Part shown: positions 2,959 through 17,815 of the stretch, piece after piece
How positions within the stretch are numbered: position 1 is the first letter of the stretch
Layout of the letters: each line of letters begins with the position of its first letter
Virus record (IMG/VR): IMGVR_UViG_3300008735_000126
Span: 1-20,266 of that record
Direction: 5' to 3' (one strand)
DNA: 20,266 nucleotides
Source: a virus
Made by a program: the position numbers and the translations under genes
The notes under the pieces: generated by a model
Seen by the model: the letters and a program-made list of their open reading frames with translations, nothing else
What the model was told of the DNA's origin: nothing
The model's database searches: none

Positions 2959-3366
2959 ATGCCTAATTATACAAATTATTATAAAAATACAGCACAACCT
3001 ATAAATGAAACTAGTTCAGGCAAATTAAGTGTTGACGACAAAAGGCAAAAGTTCTTTAATAATTATTATACAAAAGTTCAATCAGTTGATCCGGCCCAAT
3101 ATGATATTGTTATCGGTTTTTTAAAGGGAAGAGGTTATGAAGAATCTGTTCAAAGAAATTTATCAATTACATTAATGGAAATCGCTGTAGAACAGGATGT
3201 AAATATAGTAGATTTAATAAATCAACTTGAAGAAGTAAAAGATTCTATAAAATTAAATACTCTTCTATGCATATTATGTAATACTACAAGAAATAGAACA
3301 AGTGTGTTAGGTTTTAAAAAAGATGGCTCAATAAATAGTACAGTAAAAAGAACAATACTGGCTTAA
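2959..3366 (+). CDS. Small conserved marine T4-like phage protein, probably virion-associated
   Basis: This 135-aa protein lies five bases after the preceding gene. The N-terminus is Tyr/Asn-rich and probably extended (YTNYYKNTAQPIN). The middle is an all-helical domain (about residues 45-105: IVIGFLKGRGYEESVQ and a following helix with IAVEQDVNIVDLINQLEEV). The C-terminus NRTSVLGFKKDGSIN...KRTIL is a motif I associate with hypothetical proteins near the tail and neck genes of marine T4-like phages. No catalytic motif is visible. It may be a small neck, tail-completion or assembly protein; the role is inferred only from its position between tail and head-completion genes. Confidence 0.6.
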   Translation: MPNYTNYYKNTAQPINETSSGKLSVDDKRQKFFNNYYTKVQSVDPAQYDIVIGFLKGRGYEESVQRNLSITLMEIAVEQDVNIVDLINQLEEVKDSIKLNTLLCILCNTTRNRTSVLGFKKDGSINSTVKRTILA

Positions 3367-3369
3367 ATT

Positions 3370-3804
3370 ATGGCAAAATATGCCCAAGGGAAATTCATTC
3401 CCAAAAATAATAAAAAATATGTAGGAAAAGGTTCACCAACTTATAGAAGTGGTTGGGAGTTTGCCTTTATGAAATTCTGTGACAACCACCCGTCAGTAAC
3501 TGAATGGGCAAGCGAACCAATGAAGATTCCATATCGTAATCCTTTAACAGGCAGACAAACTGTTTATGTTCCAGATTTTTTAATCATATACGAAGGCAAA
3601 AGCGGAAGACGCGCAGAATTAATAGAAATAAAACCCAAAAGCCAAACATTGAAAGAACGCGCCGGCCGTAGTAAATATAATCAAGCAAGTGTCGCAGTTA
3701 ACCATGCAAAATGGGAAGCAGCCTATAAATGGTGTCAACGACAAGGCATACAATTTCGTATCGTAACAGAGGATGATATTTTTCATCAAGGCCGCAAACG
3801 CTAA
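3370..3804 (+). CDS. 4: Head completion protein, gp4-like nuclease fold
   Basis: The T4 gp4 (also called gp50/65) family acts after packaging to finish the filled head before tail joining, and it has a TnsA/restriction-endonuclease-like fold. The 144-aa length fits the family (about 150 aa). The expected motif series is present: YRSGWE with Glu30, VTEWASEP with Glu49, YVPDF with Asp69, and ELIEIKPKSQ with Glu86, Lys88 and Gln92. Together these form the E...PD...(E)xK pattern of this nuclease superfamily. The C-terminal helix (AVNHAKWEAAYKWCQ) followed by a strand (FRIVTEDDIF) is also characteristic. It starts three bases after the previous stop. It is the last recognisable virion gene before the accessory cassette. 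Confidence 0.85.
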   Translation: MAKYAQGKFIPKNNKKYVGKGSPTYRSGWEFAFMKFCDNHPSVTEWASEPMKIPYRNPLTGRQTVYVPDFLIIYEGKSGRRAELIEIKPKSQTLKERAGRSKYNQASVAVNHAKWEAAYKWCQRQGIQFRIVTEDDIFHQGRKR

Positions 3805-3815
3805 TAAGTAATAGT

Positions 3816-4544
3816 GTGTCCTTCAATAGTTTTAAATATATTTTTGTCTGCTATCCACACGGCGGCGGCGGCGAATTTTTATCATACATTATAAGCAAAG
3901 CAGAAGAATGTAATACATTAGTGCGACGAAAAGTTGGCAATCGTACAAAAGTACATGACATTTTTAATCAGCATATGCTTAGAATGGATTTTAGTATTGA
4001 TCGTTGTTTTAATGATTACGGTGATAATGGCGATTTGACTGGAATAGATGACAGCAAGTATGTTGTAGTTCCTACACATTACAGGGAAGATGCCGTAGGA
4101 CAATATTTTAAGAATTATAAGTTTGTAAACATTTTATATCCGAGAACAGAAGAAGGCCACAAAAGAGTTTTGTGTAATATTAAAGATAAAGTTTGGATGC
4201 AGCCCCAACCTACTCAGTTGGAATTCTTTGGTATGCTTCAGCAATTGGAAAAGGATGTAGGCAATAGAGATTGGTTTGTTAATACACACTTTTCAATGAA
4301 CACAATTGACATACTTCTAGCATCTCAAGGAAAAGAACTAACTGATGAGAATAGAGAACAACTTGAAAATGATTGGAATAATGATTTACAAACAAAGCAT
4401 AAGAAAAAAGATAACAACTTGTGTATTGAATATGAAAATATTATTAATAGTTTAGAACAAATTGGAAAATACTTAGACATTACTATTACAGAAAAAATGC
4501 AAATAGAATTACAAGAAAAAATACAAAATGATGAAAAAATATGA
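3816..4544 (+). CDS. P-loop / sulfotransferase-like protein of unknown function
   Basis: This 242-aa protein starts at a GTG 11 bases after the gp4 stop. The N-terminal strand and glycine loop, YIFVCYPHGGGGEFLSYIIS (residues 8-27), look like the phosphate-binding loop that opens a sulfotransferase-type fold, and similar 'GGGGEFLS' openings occur, as I recall, in uncharacterised phage proteins. A later VNILYPRTEEG could be another nucleotide-fold strand-turn. The last 80 residues are Lys/Glu/Asn-rich helices. No clear PAPS 3'-phosphate motif is visible, so a sulfotransferase activity is only a suggestion; a kinase-like or glycan-related role is equally open. Its end overlaps the next gene by 17 bases, so the two are likely translated together. 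Confidence 0.55.
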   Translation: MSFNSFKYIFVCYPHGGGGEFLSYIISKAEECNTLVRRKVGNRTKVHDIFNQHMLRMDFSIDRCFNDYGDNGDLTGIDDSKYVVVPTHYREDAVGQYFKNYKFVNILYPRTEEGHKRVLCNIKDKVWMQPQPTQLEFFGMLQQLEKDVGNRDWFVNTHFSMNTIDILLASQGKELTDENREQLENDWNNDLQTKHKKKDNNLCIEYENIINSLEQIGKYLDITITEKMQIELQEKIQNDEKI

Positions 4545-5415
4545 TCTAAATTATATTGATATAATGGTACAGTATGCATGTAGTTTATCTTGCAAGGGTT
4601 GTATTACGTTGTCTAATTATGATCGTAAAGGACATGTTTCTTGGAAGGAGGGCGAACAATGGTTAAGGGAGTGGAGTCTACGCATTAAACCAAAAGAAAT
4701 CAATCTAATGGGAGGTGAACCACTACTAAACAAAGATTTCCAACAATGGTTATATGGCGTAAGGGAGTACTTTCCAAAATCTCGTATTAAGTTTATTACC
4801 AATGGATTCCATTATAAGTCTCGTCCGGCGTTATACCAATGGTGTAAAGAAGTTAATAATGTATTAATACAAACTAGTTTACACTATCGCCCTCCTCCTG
4901 AGAAATATATAGATAGTATTAAATTCTTTTTAAGTCAAACTGATTGGAAAATAGATGGCATACCGTTTGATCCGCCTGATAAACTTATTAAATTAATTGA
5001 TAAGAATACTAATATTAAATGGCATATGAACTTGTTTGGAGAATTTAGGCGTCCGTTCATGGGAGAAGGTGCGAATATATATCCAGCAAATAACGACAAT
5101 TATATAGGAGCACATAGAGTATGTGGATCACCAAATTCTCCAACAATATATAAAAATAAATTATATAAATGCCCTGCAATTGCTAACCTAGAAGATACAT
5201 TAAGAGTTTTTGGTAAAGAGAACGAAGAACAATGGGCACCATACTTAAATACTGGATTAGACTATAATAGCGATTTAGATAAGTTTATAGGAAATATATA
5301 TAAACCAGATCCAGTAGCATGTAGAGCATGTAGCAGTAATTCGCAAGAGATTGAATATGATCATTATGCACTCGGAAATGTTATTACAAGGAAAGAATAT
5401 AATAAAATAAAATGA
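4528..5415 (+). CDS. Radical SAM enzyme with C-terminal SPASM/twitch-like cysteines
   Basis: This 295-aa protein carries the radical SAM signature CxxxCxxC at Cys18, Cys22 and Cys25 (CSLSCKGC), which would hold a [4Fe-4S] cluster that cleaves S-adenosylmethionine to a 5'-deoxyadenosyl radical. The SAM-binding GGEP motif is at residues 62-65 and is followed by PLLNKDF, as in the AdoMet radical barrel. FITNG (89-93) is the usual next strand. Four C-terminal cysteines (Cys199, Cys215, Cys265, Cys268), with YKNKLYKCPA around Cys215, resemble a twitch/SPASM half that binds an auxiliary cluster. Enzymes of this architecture often modify peptides, proteins or small carbohydrates. The substrate here is unknown. 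The start ATGATG overlaps the previous gene by 17 bases, and its stop overlaps the next ATG (ATGA). Confidence 0.85.
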   Translation: MMKKYDLNYIDIMVQYACSLSCKGCITLSNYDRKGHVSWKEGEQWLREWSLRIKPKEINLMGGEPLLNKDFQQWLYGVREYFPKSRIKFITNGFHYKSRPALYQWCKEVNNVLIQTSLHYRPPPEKYIDSIKFFLSQTDWKIDGIPFDPPDKLIKLIDKNTNIKWHMNLFGEFRRPFMGEGANIYPANNDNYIGAHRVCGSPNSPTIYKNKLYKCPAIANLEDTLRVFGKENEEQWAPYLNTGLDYNSDLDKFIGNIYKPDPVACRACSSNSQEIEYDHYALGNVITRKEYNKIK

Positions 5416-6215
5416 GTAAATTAATCACAGCCGGCTGTGGTATTAGCCAGCGAGACTTTAAACATTATCCAATTTGGGTACACTTTCCCACACTTACGCA
5501 CAAATTAAAACACATTTCTATTGGCGGCCCAGCAGTGGGCAATGAGTATATTGGCCGCACTTGCAAAAAACATATATTAGAAAACTTAGATGTTGAAGCA
5601 GTTATTATACAATGGACTAGTATTGGTAAACTTGATTTATTTGTAGAGAACGAAGAAATACTTTCTCAAATAAAAGACTTTAATTTACGAAATTTTATTG
5701 TCGATATGGATGCTAATGTCGTCGATGGAAGAGGTTTTTGGGCGAGCAGTAGCAGTGATGATAACGTAATTAAAGAAGTTTACAACGATGTTTTTAAATC
5801 TAATATATATGAGCACATGAAAGATCTAGAGCAAATATTAGATATACAAACATTGTGTGAGTTGCATGGAATTCCATATTATTTTTTCTTTGGCTATGCT
5901 TTTAATTTTGATTTTATAAAAGAGACACCTGAATTACAGCATTTATATTATAATATAAATTGGAATAAGTTTATAACGCCAAAACCAATATATGAAATTT
6001 ATAAAGAAAGTGAAGAGTTTGAATTAGACGTATTTGATAAAGATGCAAGATATATGTCACCCAACAGTGCGTTTCAAATTGATTTTTATGTTAAATATAT
6101 AATACCAATATTAAATGACTATTTTACTACTATAAATTTTGATATCGAACGATTACAAAAACATAGCATTAAATTGGCACAAAATTTAAGAAAATTATAT
6201 GGAAATATGGAATAA
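5412..6215 (+). CDS. SGNH/GDSL-hydrolase-like protein, probably catalytically degenerate
   Basis: This 267-aa protein is coupled to the preceding radical SAM gene by an ATGA overlap. It follows the block order of phage SGNH-like proteins: an opening strand and turn (LITAGCGISQRDF, 4-16), then SIGGPAVGNEYIGRT (36-50) as the Gly...GN block, and AVIIQWTSIGKLDLF (63-77) as the following strand. In active relatives the first block carries a catalytic Ser and a late D-x-H-P-N block carries the His. Here the first block is GCGIS and the late block reads YMSPNSAF (214-221), so the usual Ser and His positions look changed. It may be a binding protein or use other residues. This is very AT-rich DNA (15 of 60 bases at 6121-6180 are G or C). 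The family call is by pattern only. Confidence 0.55.
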   Translation: MSKLITAGCGISQRDFKHYPIWVHFPTLTHKLKHISIGGPAVGNEYIGRTCKKHILENLDVEAVIIQWTSIGKLDLFVENEEILSQIKDFNLRNFIVDMDANVVDGRGFWASSSSDDNVIKEVYNDVFKSNIYEHMKDLEQILDIQTLCELHGIPYYFFFGYAFNFDFIKETPELQHLYYNINWNKFITPKPIYEIYKESEEFELDVFDKDARYMSPNSAFQIDFYVKYIIPILNDYFTTINFDIERLQKHSIKLAQNLRKLYGNME

Positions 6216-7152
6216 AATAACAATTGTTCATGTAGAGCCAACAACCAAATGTAATGCTAGTTGCCCAGGATGTCCGCGCAATAATAATGGATATGGACTT
6301 AAAGACAATTTTGAATTAATTGATCTTGATCTAGATTTTTTTATTGATTTTGTTAATAAATGTAATATATTAAAAAATATTCATTTATGTGGAAATCGAG
6401 GAGACCCTGCAGCCTATAAGCATCTTAAAGATCTTTTAAGATTGGTATCATTCGATAACAGAGAATTTTTTGTTTCAATGCACACAAGCGGTAGTTTAAG
6501 ATCTACGACTTGGTGGGCCGATTTAGGAAGTTATAAAAGCAATCAACTTGAAGTTACTTTCTCAATTGATGGACTAGAGGATACAAATCATATCTATAGA
6601 CAAGGCACAAATTTTAATAAAATAATAGATAATGCAAAGGCATATATCGACGCCGGCGGCCACGCGGTGTGGAAATTTTTAACGTTTAAACATAACCAGC
6701 ACCAAGTTGAAGAGGCAAGGGAATTGTCTCATAAATTAGGGTTTTCAGAATTTTATACAGAATTGCCCTATGTGCCAGAGGCATTTCATTGGAAAACTAA
6801 TGAAAGATATTTATTAGAGTTTCCTGATGAAGATAATAATTCATATGACTCAGTAAAGACTCAAGTATTCGAAAACACAGCAATTTCAAATGAAGTAGAT
6901 AAAAAAGCCTATTTAGATAAGATTATTTCCAATAATTATGTCGATCCAAATGTTTGTGATCATTTACAGTGCTCTGACGATGATGAGCATTATCAACTTT
7001 TTATAAGCGCAGATGGCGTAATTCATCCTTGCTGTTTTTGGGAAGATGAAAGAAAAGAAGTTTATGATATTGAAACTTTAAACATAGCAAAAGAATTTTC
7101 CCAAGGATTGTATCGAAAGACATGTTTAGAAGTATGCGGAGTGATTAAATAA
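6199..7152 (+). CDS. Radical SAM/SPASM-type enzyme
   Basis: This 317-aa protein has the CxxxCxxC cluster motif at Cys18, Cys22 and Cys25 (CNASCPGC), at exactly the same residue numbers as the other radical SAM protein of this cassette, after an EPTTKCN lead-in typical of SPASM family members. The usual GGEP is replaced by CGNRGDP (64-70), which occurs in some members. FSIDGL (121-126) is a further barrel strand motif. The C-terminal part holds Cys253, Cys258, ISADGVIHPCCFW with Cys278/279, and Cys309/Cys313, matching a SPASM auxiliary-cluster layout. Such proteins often install cross-links or modify peptides, or modify sugars, but the substrate is unknown here. It overlaps the SGNH-like gene by 17 bases and ends four bases before gp16. 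Confidence 0.87.
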   Translation: MEIWNKITIVHVEPTTKCNASCPGCPRNNNGYGLKDNFELIDLDLDFFIDFVNKCNILKNIHLCGNRGDPAAYKHLKDLLRLVSFDNREFFVSMHTSGSLRSTTWWADLGSYKSNQLEVTFSIDGLEDTNHIYRQGTNFNKIIDNAKAYIDAGGHAVWKFLTFKHNQHQVEEARELSHKLGFSEFYTELPYVPEAFHWKTNERYLLEFPDEDNNSYDSVKTQVFENTAISNEVDKKAYLDKIISNNYVDPNVCDHLQCSDDDEHYQLFISADGVIHPCCFWEDERKEVYDIETLNIAKEFSQGLYRKTCLEVCGVIK

Positions 7153-7156
7153 CGTT

Positions 7157-7648
7157 ATGACAAAAAAACTAGAAGAACTTTTTGATTTAGCACAATCAGA
7201 GCAAGAAGAAGAGAAGCCCTCGGACTTTAAACCCGAAGAAGCAACAAAACTACAGTCAGTATTAAGCGATGTAGATAAAATTGATAGTGCATTACCACTA
7301 GTTAGAGATTTAGAATCTAATGATAAAGAAATGGACAACATTGCTGAAAAGTCCATAACAACATTTAATGATCTAATGGATTTGGGCATGAATGTAGAAG
7401 CACGATACGCAGGTAAGATATTTGAAGTAGCAGGCACTATGATGAAGAACGCCATTGATGCTAAAGCCGCAAAAATTGATAAGAAATTGCGTATGGTTGA
7501 ATTGCAAATTAAGAAGCAACGTGTAGATCAACAAGAAAGGGATGTTGGCGGACTAGAAATAGAAGCAGAAGCAACTATTGTAGCAGATCGCAACGAACTA
7601 ATTAAGCAAATCCTAGATCAAAATAAAGACAGCAAAGATAAAAAATAG
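7157..7648 (+). CDS. 16: Terminase small subunit (T4 gp16-like)
   Basis: gp16 recognises the DNA to be packaged and stimulates the large terminase gp17. The 163-aa length matches T4 gp16 (164 aa). The family core is clear: DVDKIDSALPLVRDLESNDKE, then TTFNDLMDLGMNVEARYAG, FEVAGTMMKNAIDAKAAKIDKKLRMVELQIKK. These are two long antiparallel coiled-coil helices that form the oligomeric ring. The acidic N-terminal extension and the Lys/Asp-rich C-terminus are probably flexible. It begins four bases after the second radical SAM gene, so the accessory cassette and packaging genes probably share a transcript. In T4 gene 16 is followed directly by 17; here about 1.7 kb with three genes intervenes. Confidence 0.88.
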   Translation: MTKKLEELFDLAQSEQEEEKPSDFKPEEATKLQSVLSDVDKIDSALPLVRDLESNDKEMDNIAEKSITTFNDLMDLGMNVEARYAGKIFEVAGTMMKNAIDAKAAKIDKKLRMVELQIKKQRVDQQERDVGGLEIEAEATIVADRNELIKQILDQNKDSKDKK

Positions 7649-8298: not shown

Positions 8299-9195
8299 AT
8301 GGAAACAAAATATAACCTAAATATTACAACATCTGGAGAGAACGGTGATAACGCAACAACATCAATTTCTACTACAGATGCAAACAAACTAGCAGAGTTG
8401 CTAAATTTAGCAGGCATGAGCCAATCTCATCCTGTAGCATTAAATGTAAGTCCTGAAGAAGAGTATGATGCTCCATGCCCAGACTGTGGTGATTCACCAT
8501 GTGGTTGCGGTATGACAGAAGGCGAAAGTTGGGATAATGAGCCAGAAGCAACAGTTCATTCACCAGAAGAAGTTTTTAAAGTAGGTGACGACTTGCATAG
8601 GGTAAAGAAAAGTTATCCTCCAGTAGCAGGCGGTGACAATCCAATGGCATTGGAATCTGCAGAAAATAAATTACGCAATGCGTATGACGAGTTTATTGCT
8701 GAAAGTGAAGAAGAAGCTGAGGAAGTTGAAGAGGCAATTAGAGTCAAATACCGCACAAAGAAAGAAGTTCCTCACCGTGCTAGAAAACCTTTAGAAAAAG
8801 AAGAGGTAGAAGAAGAAGTAGAAGAAGTTCATGAAACACCCGCTGGATGGGCCAAAAGTAAAGAAATAGATAACATGGAGTTTCCTACTAAAGGTGTAAA
8901 ACCGGGTTGGAAAGAAGATGCAATCAAAGCCGCAATAAAAGTAGTACACGATATGGCAGGCGATTACGATGGTGCGTGGGCTGCAATTAAAGATGCTTAT
9001 GGTGAAGATGTTTTAAATGATGATGCTGTACAAGATGCATTATATAAAGCAAATGTAGAAGAAGATGTTAATCGTATTAGACAACTAGCAGGTTTGGATG
9101 AAGCCGCAGGAAAACGGAAAAAGCCTGAAGAGGCAAAAAAAGCACCAGAAAAGAAAGACGACGGTAAAGGAAAAACCTGGGGTGTAGTAGCCTAA
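8299..9195 (+). CDS. Acidic low-complexity protein with a Cys cluster, probably virion or prohead-core associated
   Basis: This 298-aa protein is not recognised as a named family. An N-terminal part with TTDANKLAELLNLAGMS is followed by a cysteine cluster CPDCGDSPCGCG (Cys60, 63, 68, 70), which could bind zinc. Residues 135-180 are Glu/Val-rich and probably a long acidic helix (ESEEEAEEVEEAI and KEEVEEEVEEVHE). A folded segment around 200-250 (GWKEDAIKAAIKVVHDMAG, YDGAWAAIKDAYGEDVL) and EEDVNRIRQLAGLDEA (254-269) follow. The basic tail is Lys/Pro-rich. The composition resembles prohead core or internal proteins of T4-like phages. It starts one base after the previous stop, so translation is probably coupled. 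Confidence 0.55.
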   Translation: METKYNLNITTSGENGDNATTSISTTDANKLAELLNLAGMSQSHPVALNVSPEEEYDAPCPDCGDSPCGCGMTEGESWDNEPEATVHSPEEVFKVGDDLHRVKKSYPPVAGGDNPMALESAENKLRNAYDEFIAESEEEAEEVEEAIRVKYRTKKEVPHRARKPLEKEEVEEEVEEVHETPAGWAKSKEIDNMEFPTKGVKPGWKEDAIKAAIKVVHDMAGDYDGAWAAIKDAYGEDVLNDDAVQDALYKANVEEDVNRIRQLAGLDEAAGKRKKPEEAKKAPEKKDDGKGKTWGVVA

Positions 9196-15738: not shown

Positions 15739-16191
15739 GTGTGGTATAATAAAATTGTCCAAGACATGGGTAATATACCGGATGCTCTAGAATATTTCGA
15801 GAACGAATTAACTGGTGCTAAAAAAGACGTCAAAATTTCTGGCGTCTTAGAAAAAAATGCAACAGCGTTACCAGGTATTGTAGAGCATCGCTTTAATCAA
15901 CTTCAAGAGTTAGAAGCAATCCTGCAACATCTTAATATTCAACTACGCAAACTTAGACGTAAACACTTTAAAAAATACTTAGAAAGTTATAATAGAGCCT
16001 TGAGTGCTCGTGACGCTGAAAAATATGTAGACGGCGAAGATGAAGTGGTTGATCTAGAAACTGTTATTAATGAAGTTGCATTGGTTCGCAACAAATGGTT
16101 AGGAGTTATTAAAGGACTTGATGTTAAGCAATTTCAGGTAAGTAATGTAATAAGACTTCGCACAGCAGGTATGGAGGATGTTACAGTATAA
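15739..16191 (+). CDS. uvsY: Recombination mediator protein (T4 UvsY-like)
   Basis: UvsY helps UvsX replace gp32 on single-stranded DNA. The 150-aa length is close to T4 UvsY (137 aa). The family core is plain: ALPGIVEHRFNQLQELEAIL, then LNIQLRKLRRKHFKKYLE, SYNRALSARDAEKYVDGE, and INEVALVRNKWLGVIKGL, ending RLRTAGMEDVTV. These are the basic DNA-binding helices and the coiled-coil assembly part. The start is a GTG (GTGTGGTAT) six bases after the preceding stop. No strong ribosome site is seen, so coupling to the preceding gene is likely. Its TAA shares TAATG with the methyltransferase start. Confidence 0.92.
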   Translation: MWYNKIVQDMGNIPDALEYFENELTGAKKDVKISGVLEKNATALPGIVEHRFNQLQELEAILQHLNIQLRKLRRKHFKKYLESYNRALSARDAEKYVDGEDEVVDLETVINEVALVRNKWLGVIKGLDVKQFQVSNVIRLRTAGMEDVTV

Positions 16192-16946
16192 TGAATAAAA
16201 CACTTATATATGGTGATTTAGTCGAACAAAGAAAATCAGCCCAAGAAGTTTTCAAAGTAGTTTCTAAACAATTGTTTGAGAACATGTTGCATGTATGTGA
16301 TTTTGGCTGTGGGGATGGATCTAATACAGAATGGTGGTGTAACCAAGCATCATATGAAGAATCTGCACCATACGCTAATCACACAAAAGTTTCTGGTATT
16401 GATTTAATTGATAGGGAAACTGATAAATTTGACTTTACTTGTGGCGATATTTTAAATATGCCATACAAAGACGATGAATTTAATATTGGTTGGTGTCACT
16501 ATACATTACAACAATTGAAAGACCCTATACAAGGGTTATTAGAAATGCGTAGAGTACTTACTCCTTTTTCATTACTGTTTATAACTGTTCCACAAACATT
16601 AGATACAGAGTTTGGTAGACTAAAAACTAAATTTGGAAGATATGATAGAAACTTTTATACCTTACCTACATTTATAAATCAGTTAGCAATAACAGGCTGG
16701 GATTGTAGAAAGGGATATTTTCTTAAAAATTTTAATGATCGTAATATTTACGGTATTGTTAAACCCAAACAAGATTGGGAAGAACTAGATGATCCAATGG
16801 ATTTAGGACCAGTAGATCTTATGGAAAGAGAAGTCTTGCCTGAAAGTACGGATGATATGATAAAAGCAAAAGGTTATTTTGACGAGTCTGCGTTAATGCT
16901 AACGTGGATGAATGGCTCAATTACTGATTATGGAAGTAGAGTGTAA
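16191..16946 (+). CDS. Class I SAM-dependent methyltransferase (type 11)
   Basis: This 251-aa protein has the SAM-binding motif I at DFGCGDGS (37-44), a GIDLID strand with the acidic ribose contact, FTCGDILNMPYKDDEFNIGWCHYTLQQLKDP as the motif II/III region, and MRRVLTPFSLLFITVP. The 'MPYKDDEFN' step is typical of small-molecule and lipid or sugar methyltransferases of the type 11 group. No target-recognition domain of a DNA methyltransferase (NPPY or PCQ) is present, so the substrate is probably not DNA bases. The TAATG overlap with uvsY and the same overlap with the next gene indicate translational coupling in one operon. Confidence 0.82.
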   Translation: MNKTLIYGDLVEQRKSAQEVFKVVSKQLFENMLHVCDFGCGDGSNTEWWCNQASYEESAPYANHTKVSGIDLIDRETDKFDFTCGDILNMPYKDDEFNIGWCHYTLQQLKDPIQGLLEMRRVLTPFSLLFITVPQTLDTEFGRLKTKFGRYDRNFYTLPTFINQLAITGWDCRKGYFLKNFNDRNIYGIVKPKQDWEELDDPMDLGPVDLMEREVLPESTDDMIKAKGYFDESALMLTWMNGSITDYGSRV

Positions 16947-17815
16947 TGGGTTTTCCTATACTACAATGTGAAAATGTTAGAGTTAAGCCGTGTAAGCACG
17001 GAGATTTTGCATATAATATCAAAGACACAATTGTCGGTCGTAGTTTAGATTTATACGGTGAATATGCAGAGGCAGAACTAGCATTGGCATCACAATTATT
17101 ACGACCAGGTGCTAAAGTTATTGATGTAGGGGCTAATATAGGATTACATTCTGTGTTTTATTCTAGAATAGTAGGCAAGGAAGGAGAAGTATATGCTTTT
17201 GAACCAAGCCATTTAAATTATTTTTTCTTAATGACTAATCTGACTATTAATAGTGCATTTAACGTAACGCCAGTCAAAGGAGCAGTGGGAACAAAACGGC
17301 CATTATACTTGCCATTGAATAGAGTAGATGACGAAATGAATCATGGCGCATTAAAAACATCTGACAATGATACAGGCAATGATGTAGAACGTTGCGCGGT
17401 GTTTAATTTAGATGATATTGGTCTCGATTATTGTAATTTGGTTAAAGTAGATGTAGAAGGTAATGAATCAGATGTTCTACATACTGGTACAAGGCTATTC
17501 TCAACTCATAGACCATTTGTTATTGCAGAATGCCAAGAAAACCAAAAAGAATTGCTACAAACTTTTAAAGATATGGATTATGACTGTTATTGGCTTCCCT
17601 CTCCGGATTTTAATCCAGATAATTACTTTGAAAATTCTGAGTGTATTTTTGTAGATCCCACAGGTGCTGTAATCAACGTTTTTGCCCACCCTAAAGAAAT
17701 TGACATCAAAATAGATAATTTGACTAAAATCCGCAAAGTTACAGATAAGTGGAAATCTCCAAAAACCACTAAAAAATCCAAGAAAAAGACTACTAAGAAA
17801 ACTAAGAAAAAGTAG
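16946..17815 (+). CDS. FkbM-family methyltransferase with Lys-rich tail
   Basis: This 289-aa protein shows the FkbM domain: VIDVGANIGLHSVFY (58-72), EVYAFEPSHLNY (81-92), a mid-domain FNLDDIGL, and VKVDVEGNESDVLHTG (167-181). FkbM enzymes commonly O-methylate sugars, and phages and surface-glycan clusters often carry them. The last ~25 residues are almost only Lys, Thr and Ser (SPKTTKKSKKK, then TTKKTKKK), an unusual tail for this family. It could bind nucleic acid, or an acidic partner such as the tail of the 75-aa protein or gp32. The start TAATG couples it to the preceding methyltransferase. After it comes an AT-rich repeat region, so this may end the operon. Confidence 0.85.
   Translation: MGFPILQCENVRVKPCKHGDFAYNIKDTIVGRSLDLYGEYAEAELALASQLLRPGAKVIDVGANIGLHSVFYSRIVGKEGEVYAFEPSHLNYFFLMTNLTINSAFNVTPVKGAVGTKRPLYLPLNRVDDEMNHGALKTSDNDTGNDVERCAVFNLDDIGLDYCNLVKVDVEGNESDVLHTGTRLFSTHRPFVIAECQENQKELLQTFKDMDYDCYWLPSPDFNPDNYFENSECIFVDPTGAVINVFAHPKEIDIKIDNLTKIRKVTDKWKSPKTTKKSKKKTTKKTKKK

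Follow-up and report, generated by a model that had tools for sequence, protein, structure and literature searches.

A T4-like phage has a set of four genes, designated A, B, C and D, interposed between its gp4 and gp16 genes, at positions 3816–7152 on the plus strand of the window, the whole 20,266-nucleotide stretch of IMG/VR virus record IMGVR_UViG_3300008735_000126 that was analysed. Its novelty is that it is fixed within the packaging operon, that one of its enzymes is exchangeable and that the SGNH partner is dead. In the list of open reading frames (ORFs), A (3816–4544; 242 amino acids) has a GTG start and a P-loop-like N terminus, YPHGxGGEFLSYI. It is followed by B (4528–5415; 295 amino acids), a radical S-adenosylmethionine (SAM) gene, by C (5412–6215; 267 amino acids), a DUF6071-like relative of the SGNH superfamily, and by D (6199–7152; 317 amino acids), a second radical SAM gene. 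A preliminary description of this DNA had reported four overlapping genes between gp4 and gp16, and its coordinates and all three overlaps proved exact: 17 bases between A and B (4528–4544), ATGA between B and C (5412–5415) and 17 bases between C and D (6199–6215). The end of D is separated from the start of gp16 by 4 bases.

The proteins of the window were compared by tblastn with the 28 IMG/VR contigs that bear A, many of which are near-duplicates (10 distinct variants were aligned for A). Genes A, B, C and D occur in the same order in 24 of the 28; in 031801, D runs past the contig end. The remaining four contigs (044246, 027844, 048880 and 009193) stop within the set. gp16 follows the set in all 20 contigs that reach that far, and the 25 contigs found in a scan for C all fall among the 28 with A. 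The earlier idea of an associated four-gene set is therefore upheld. Another five IMG/VR contigs, between 13 and 202 kb in length, encode proteins identical to A–D. The longest of these, G001 (201,690 bases), matches the whole window at 99.98% identity and is therefore taken as the window's phage.

Presence of the cassette tracks the identity of gp4. The best 80 of at least 555 relatives of the gp4 locus were surveyed, 20 at 77% identity or more and 60 at 68% or less; one locus is cut in each group, which leaves 19 and 59 readable. The cassette is present in 19/19 readable loci of the first group and in 0/59 of the second, where gp16 directly follows gp4 in 56 loci and one unrelated ORF separates them in three. 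On the simplest reading, a single insertion would have occurred in a single clade of marine T4-like phages and would have been kept since, with no loss. The flanking genes, both on the plus strand, are gp4 (3370–3804), a head closure protein with a TnsA-like endonuclease fold (PHROG 218, 151.8 bits; Pfam TnsA-like N, 87.7 bits), and gp16 (7157–7648), the terminase small subunit, assigned from a weak match to PHROG 445 (24 bits) and from synteny. The GC content of A–D is 0.295–0.324, compared with 0.365 for the window; GC content at third codon positions and codon usage are ordinary, so that there is no sign of a very recent entry. Purifying selection acts on A–C in all eight pairs measured. 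In the pair 010934/007513, for example, the non-synonymous (dN) and synonymous (dS) divergences are 0.013 and 0.19 for B, and 0.023 and 0.31 for C.

Outside this clade, neither A nor C was found by tblastn of named phages or by profile scans of IMG/VR, which were seeded by exact short patterns and may overlook remote relatives. The tblastn of named phages found D in four records and B in two. Close relatives of B occur only in the cassette, while two phage records contain distant B-like genes (24–26% identity) but neither A nor C; a scan of the genome collection, again seeded by exact short patterns, gave no relatives of B. The alternative that the four genes are scattered, with no association, thus fails for A and C. 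For B, the close relatives speak for association and the distant genes against it. Scatter holds in part for D, since D-type genes stand alone in other phages and in bacteria.

The position of the set also bears on the timing of its expression. All five plus-strand copies of ATAAATA in the window, a motif that resembles the late promoters of T4, are located 13–39 bases before ORF starts (1330, 3370, 7695, 10975 and 15505). The T4-type copy at 1304–1310 lies 26 bases before the tail-tube gene (gp19), and the motif is found 26–30 bases upstream of gp19 in 6/6 genomes examined. The copy at 3331–3337, 39 bases before gp4, is the last on the plus strand upstream of the cassette and is not kept in the other five genomes. 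None of A, B, C, D and gp16 has the motif directly before it in the six genomes. If the motifs are late promoters, A–D would thus probably be transcribed together with the late genes, in keeping with an earlier suggestion of action at a late stage.

Distribution and timing are both relevant to one alternative, in which a moron-like set, inserted where the late operon can tolerate it, would have been kept for altering the host surface to counter superinfection and would be unrelated to virions. Pelagimyophages are described, in the available part of the account, as having both radical SAM cassettes and glycosyltransferases within a host-recognition region that is hypervariable (PMC7029224), and the radical SAM module of phage CP220 is likewise termed interchangeable and likely non-essential (PMC2853527). 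In the present clade, however, loss was not seen in the 19 readable gp4 loci, the site is a conserved packaging block and not a hypervariable region, and the implied expression is late, not early. This alternative is considered quite improbable.

Variation at the D position

Comparison of the variants indicates that D is an exchangeable position beside a fixed core of A, B and C. Contigs 010934 and 007513 encode proteins with 96, 97 and 95% identity for A, B and C, and 55% for D; at the DNA level, identity of 91–97% over A–C falls at a sharp boundary to 54–78% in D. In the pair 032138 and 010883, D is the most similar of the three proteins compared, at 93% identity, with 85% for A and 89% for B. 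The trees are also in conflict, 010934 grouping with 025676 for D and with 032138 and 007513 for B, although the fork in the B tree is weakly supported. A second copy of D is present in 032138, where it is cut, and in the 007513 group. In the 025676 group, D (L059, 7746–8873) has a glycine-rich insertion of approximately 40 amino acids, which is absent in the other aligned alleles.

An extra ORF of about 400–424 amino acids, designated gene E, is present after gp16 in the 031800, 007513, 010883 and 025676 groups; there is none at this position in the window group or the 025108 group. In the 007513 and 025676 groups, which were tested, gene E encodes a third radical SAM enzyme, a member of the N_Twi_rSAM family, which is characterised by an N-terminal twitch (309.9 bits; cut-off 170), with scores of 307.7–309.4 bits in G004, G005, G006 and G008.

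D-type genes of phages elsewhere adjoin core genes (gp47-like and helicase-like, by eye), and paralogues occur in the same phages. Bacterial relatives were taken as the best 80 of 184 in the genome collection, at 22–40% identity; the closest among these are mostly from Bdellovibrionia, Myxococcales and other metagenome-assembled genomes (MAGs), along with a few isolates, such as Paraburkholderia fynbosensis. In some of the MAG loci, radical SAM-like ORFs follow one another in a row; as many as 12 ORFs that have CX3CX2C and exceed 230 amino acids lie within about 17 kb. Six MAG contigs (L277, L279, L282, L300, L309 and L315) contain 7–12 such ORFs in 10–17 kb and are labelled Bdellovibrionales/Bdellovibrionia, Rickettsiales, unclassified bacterium, Heimdallarchaeota and Acidimicrobiaceae; some of these CX3CX2C-rich contigs may be misbinned phage. 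Separately, a protein without a Pfam match that is encoded in a gene island of G001 (29707–30633) has homologues near D-type genes in five MAG loci (L268, L269, L270, L280 and L300), with 44% identity in L268. A shared module of this gene and a D-type gene is possible.

The four proteins

Both B (37.4 bits) and D (32.3 bits) exceed the cut-off of 29.5 bits for Pfam Radical_SAM (PF04055), and D also matches PHROG 21308 (81.5 bits). The CX3CX2C motif, formed by C18, C22 and C25 in each protein, is invariant in the alignments (plus strand, 4579–4602 in B and 6250–6273 in D), which bears out the earlier recognition of two radical SAM enzymes. Towards the C terminus, B has C199, C215, C265 and C268 (5122–5331, plus strand), invariant in the nine variants aligned, and D has C253, C278–C279, C309 and C313 (6955–7137, plus strand), invariant among the D alleles aligned; C278, C309 and C313 are invariant throughout a D family of 19 members. 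A SPASM domain has seven C-terminal cysteines and two auxiliary clusters, while a twitch domain is shorter and its cysteines can bind only one such cluster. The presence of about four conserved C-terminal cysteine positions in B and in D therefore suggests that each carries a single, twitch-like auxiliary Fe–S cluster. The previous designation of both as SPASM-type was not sustained, as D scores 16.2 bits against the SPASM cut-off of 21.5 (PF13186) and B is not listed.

Neither enzyme is a member of N_Twi_rSAM (NF033640; B 28.4 and D 30.3 bits, cut-off 170). The top NCBIfam scores are similarly below the cut-offs (given in parentheses), at 29.6 bits for B with HxsC (268) and 44.2 bits for D with W_rSAM_matur (380). 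B also scores 26.2 bits with MoaA (284), 24.6 with viperin (180), 22.8 with NrdG2 (131) and 17.9 with QueE_Clost (260). All NCBIfam cut-offs listed lie well above the scores of both proteins, so that the set is not one for queuosine synthesis, the alternative named at the outset.

The weak similarity of B to the MoaA, QueE and viperin models would be consistent with synthesis of a small molecule or nucleotide, such as a guanidino compound, an aminocyclitol, a cofactor, a nucleotide analogue or a hypermodified DNA base, that serves the infection and not surface decoration. Amidinotransferases beside the radical SAM genes of related phages, described below, would also fit. The scores are far under the family cut-offs, however, and exchange of D alleles on a fixed core would be unexpected for a step of housekeeping type; such a product appears quite improbable.

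C was compared by hhalign with an SGNH profile built from nine proteins of the window's phage and other phages, and the probability was 98.2% for C, compared with about 0% for the controls A, B and D. There are weak DUF6071 matches, below the Pfam cut-off, in 5/10 C members, and the C loci of G009 and G004 match DUF6071 at E 0.01 and 0.03, also below the cut-off. In the register given by hhalign, SGNH block I is degenerate in C (GCGIS; 5433–5447, plus strand), with GCG in 10/10 variants compared with GDS or GSS in 9/9 phage SGNH proteins. Block V, placed by eye, reads SPxxxxH in 7/10 variants and SPxxxxQ in 3/10, including the window, compared with H[PF]xxxxH in 9/9. On these alignments, C is a relative of the phage SGNH proteins in which both catalytic residues, Ser and His, are missing. 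The earlier term 'SGNH-like' thus stands by profile comparison, with the active-site residues gone. C is nevertheless under purifying selection (eight pairs; dN 0.009–0.15, dS 0.27–2.45), so that its function is probably not hydrolytic. A single weak match of C to a solved structure (E 0.033) was taken as chance.

The P-loop-like motif of A, PHGGGGEFLS (3855–3884, plus strand), is invariant across the 10 aligned variants at P14, H15, G16, G18, G19, E20, F21, L22 and S23. A had been described as sulfotransferase-like; this likeness is by eye only and received no support from the libraries or from a small profile comparison. Sulfotransferase families are absent from the library matches of 10 A members, solved structures gave nothing at E values up to 10, and hhalign against a phage sulfotransferase-like template of only three sequences gave 0.2%. 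Sulfotransfer_3 itself remains under its cut-off throughout 14 phage records, with weak matches in four.

Candidate functions of the set

In the pathway that we infer, one ancestral insertion would have set four modification genes in the late head and packaging transcription unit. B and D would each cleave SAM at a reduced [4Fe–4S] cluster, and the resulting 5'-deoxyadenosyl radical would take a hydrogen from the substrate, close to which each enzyme would hold a further Fe–S cluster. C, with an SGNH fold that has lost its catalytic residues, would bind the substrate or act as a scaffold, probably with no hydrolysis, and A, with its P-loop-like start, would probably contribute group transfer or activation. 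The set would be transcribed late, its product would most likely decorate virions, or the surface of the dying cell, with an unusual sugar or glycan, and the chemistry or target would depend on the D allele. Such a pathway, for late decoration with sugars or glycans, is favoured, if tentatively and at somewhat under an even chance.

The preference for sugars or glycans derives from the company kept by B-like genes, D-like genes and the genes of the G001 island. The B-like gene of phage S-SCSM2R adjoins glycosyltransferases and genes annotated as 3-amino-5-hydroxybenzoic acid synthase and inosamine amidinotransferase, while that of MH319720 adjoins carbamoyltransferase-like ORFs (by eye). The D-like gene of Pelagibacter phage Mosig, a cultured relative, adjoins a sugar aminotransferase and a carbamoyltransferase, and those of CP220 adjoin an amidinotransferase and two genes noted as nucleoside diphosphate (NDP)-sugar transferases. 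The island of G001, at approximately 4.7–33 kb (L109/L110), contains nine radical SAM ORFs and two SGNH-type genes, together with genes for a PIG-L deacetylase, a DegT aminotransferase, an epimerase and a carbamoyltransferase. In tblastn of named phages, two genes of this island (SGNH and sulfotransferase-like) gave no match, and one gene of G006 matched two records.

A number of observations weigh against a sugar or glycan product. The gene contexts of the relatives prove nothing for the cassette locus, and no sugar gene is present in or beside the cassette. For bacterial D loci, 14 were hand-picked from the best 80 (loci with only one D gene and without phage-like character, for the most part on long contigs) and 76 of the 108 neighbouring ORFs were scanned, 32 having been excluded by eye as likely spurious or long. 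Glycos_transf_2 and GFO_IDH_MocA were each found in 3/76, and housekeeping neighbours, such as PheRS subunits, were about equally common among the 25 of 84 families listed. These mixed neighbourhoods weaken the sugar reading. In addition, ATAAATA is not enriched in the window (6 copies compared with 11.5 expected), which leaves its position as the only informative feature, and in 031800 a copy lies inside C, 171 bases before D. A has no significant match in Pfam, PHROG or NCBIfam, the libraries searched, and structure prediction from ten-row alignments gave no usable fold for A or C (mean predicted local distance difference test scores, pLDDT, of 37.7 and 37.3). Matches to solved structures are weak: the best for B is 7wzv (E 2e-05), and the peptide epimerase YydG is matched by B at E 0.0017 and by D, as its best, at E 0.0034.

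The YydG matches, weak as they are, would also fit modification of a virion protein, in which B and D would introduce cross-links, epimerised residues or similar changes into a late structural protein and A and C would be accessory. Many radical SAM enzymes with C-terminal Fe–S domains use peptides, and the late position of the set, amid tail, head and packaging genes, would suit such a role. The locus itself, however, lacks a small precursor-like ORF: the genes overlap, only 4 bases lie between D and gp16, and no precursor of a ribosomally synthesized and post-translationally modified peptide (RiPP) was found beside B or D in the locus, where the flanks are gp4 and gp16. Furthermore, the SGNH and carbamoyltransferase partners of other radical SAM genes in the genome suggest sugars. 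A virion-protein substrate is thus conceivable but doubtful.

A cysteine-containing gene between gp16 and gp17 (8299–9195) was considered as a substrate and set aside, because the cysteine motifs also occur in some cassette-less phages and are not specific to the cassette. Across the cassette clade, the N-terminal part of this gene is kept and the length varies from 219 to 612 amino acids.

Decoration of the virion could also take a modular form. A and B, together with C as a dead SGNH adaptor, would be the fixed core, expressed along with the virion genes, and D would be plugged in, sometimes doubled or joined by a third enzyme encoded after gp16, to give a radical-made modification that can be switched in type. 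This reading is unlikely; if it is true, members of the clade would alter their particle chemistry by swapping a single enzyme gene. Should the product of the set be located on virions, it would represent a new chemistry of the phage particle, with a natural series of enzyme variants beside the same core. The set is small, is present in every readable member of the clade, lies in a conserved block and contains one exchangeable enzyme, and is consequently a better experimental target than large hypervariable islands. Elsewhere in the window, a tandem pair of methyltransferase genes (16191–17815), the second of FkbM type (51.5 bits), is located directly after uvsY and is possibly part of the same decoration theme.

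Genome setting and comparison with known systems

G001 contains 14 Pfam radical SAM matches and 16 ORFs of more than 200 amino acids with CX3CX2C. N_Twi_rSAM is above its cut-off for nine genes in G001; 14 control genomes match as well, none above the cut-off. The window's phage thus belongs with the radical-SAM-rich T4-like phages (T4-like core and at least 10 radical SAM genes). Among the cassette-less relatives, many of them short contigs, radical SAM matches are present in 2/10 and absent in eight; one cassette-less relative, G013 (357,559 bases), has 13, which shows that phages outside the cassette clade can be rich in these genes as well. G001 also encodes an A-type Fe–S carrier-like protein (178296–178628; L117, 18296–18628), which could serve the many Fe–S enzymes. 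It scores 23 bits with PF01521, for which the cut-off is 26.3, and this family is above its cut-off in 1/7 contigs.

A permuted transfer-messenger RNA (tmRNA) is present in G001 at 171815–172136 (L117, 11815–12136), with the tag ANDDYYDYALAA and scores of 121.8 bits for Rfam tmRNA_permuted and 83.7 bits for alpha_tmRNA. Its type is a hint of an alphaproteobacterial host. In addition, a MAG contig named Candidatus Pelagibacter (L311) has the look of a T4-like phage, and nine of its genes, none of them radical SAM genes, are 25–63% identical to those of G001; that it was binned with this bacterium hints faintly at a SAR11 host.

A literature search, mostly of freely readable papers, found no description of this cassette, in agreement with the initial view that the combination was not a described system. 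That T4-like phages can be radical-SAM-rich is already known (PMC2853527, PMC5332604, PMC7029224); their radical SAM genes have been counted since 2010, with no substrate given in the available parts of these reports. Of the families discussed above, gene E of the relatives and nine genes of G001 belong to N_Twi_rSAM (NF033640), whereas B and D do not. C is related by profile to the DUF6071/phage SGNH hydrolases but differs in both catalytic blocks, GDS/GSS being replaced by GCG and H[PF]xxxxH by SPxxxxH or SPxxxxQ.

The Campylobacter phages CP220 and CPt10 are reported to encode 11 and 12 radical SAM proteins, respectively, five of them in an exchangeable module (Timms et al., 2010; PMC2853527, as far as available). 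D-type members are recognized in CP220 by hidden Markov model in three ORFs of L265, at up to 52 bits. The CP220 module differs in location, since a glycine amidinotransferase gene and the noted NDP-sugar transferase genes accompany it and it does not lie in a gp4–gp16 interval, and A, B and C were unmatched in the 16.5-kb region examined. TARA_ERS488813_N000010, a T4-like marine phage of 183 kb, has 12 radical SAM genes together with Fe–S assembly genes (PMC5332604). It resembles the window's phage, which also has an Fe–S carrier-like gene, in being a radical-SAM-rich marine T4-like phage, but the available part of its description contains no gp4–gp16 cassette, and it is set apart by description only. 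The pelagimyophages, also marine and T4-like, have radical SAM cassettes as a variable trait, and alteration of the host surface has been proposed for their glycosyltransferases, according to the accessible portion of the report (PMC7029224). Their cassettes, as described there, lie in the host-recognition region, whereas the set described here is fixed in the packaging region and its replacement is confined to one slot.

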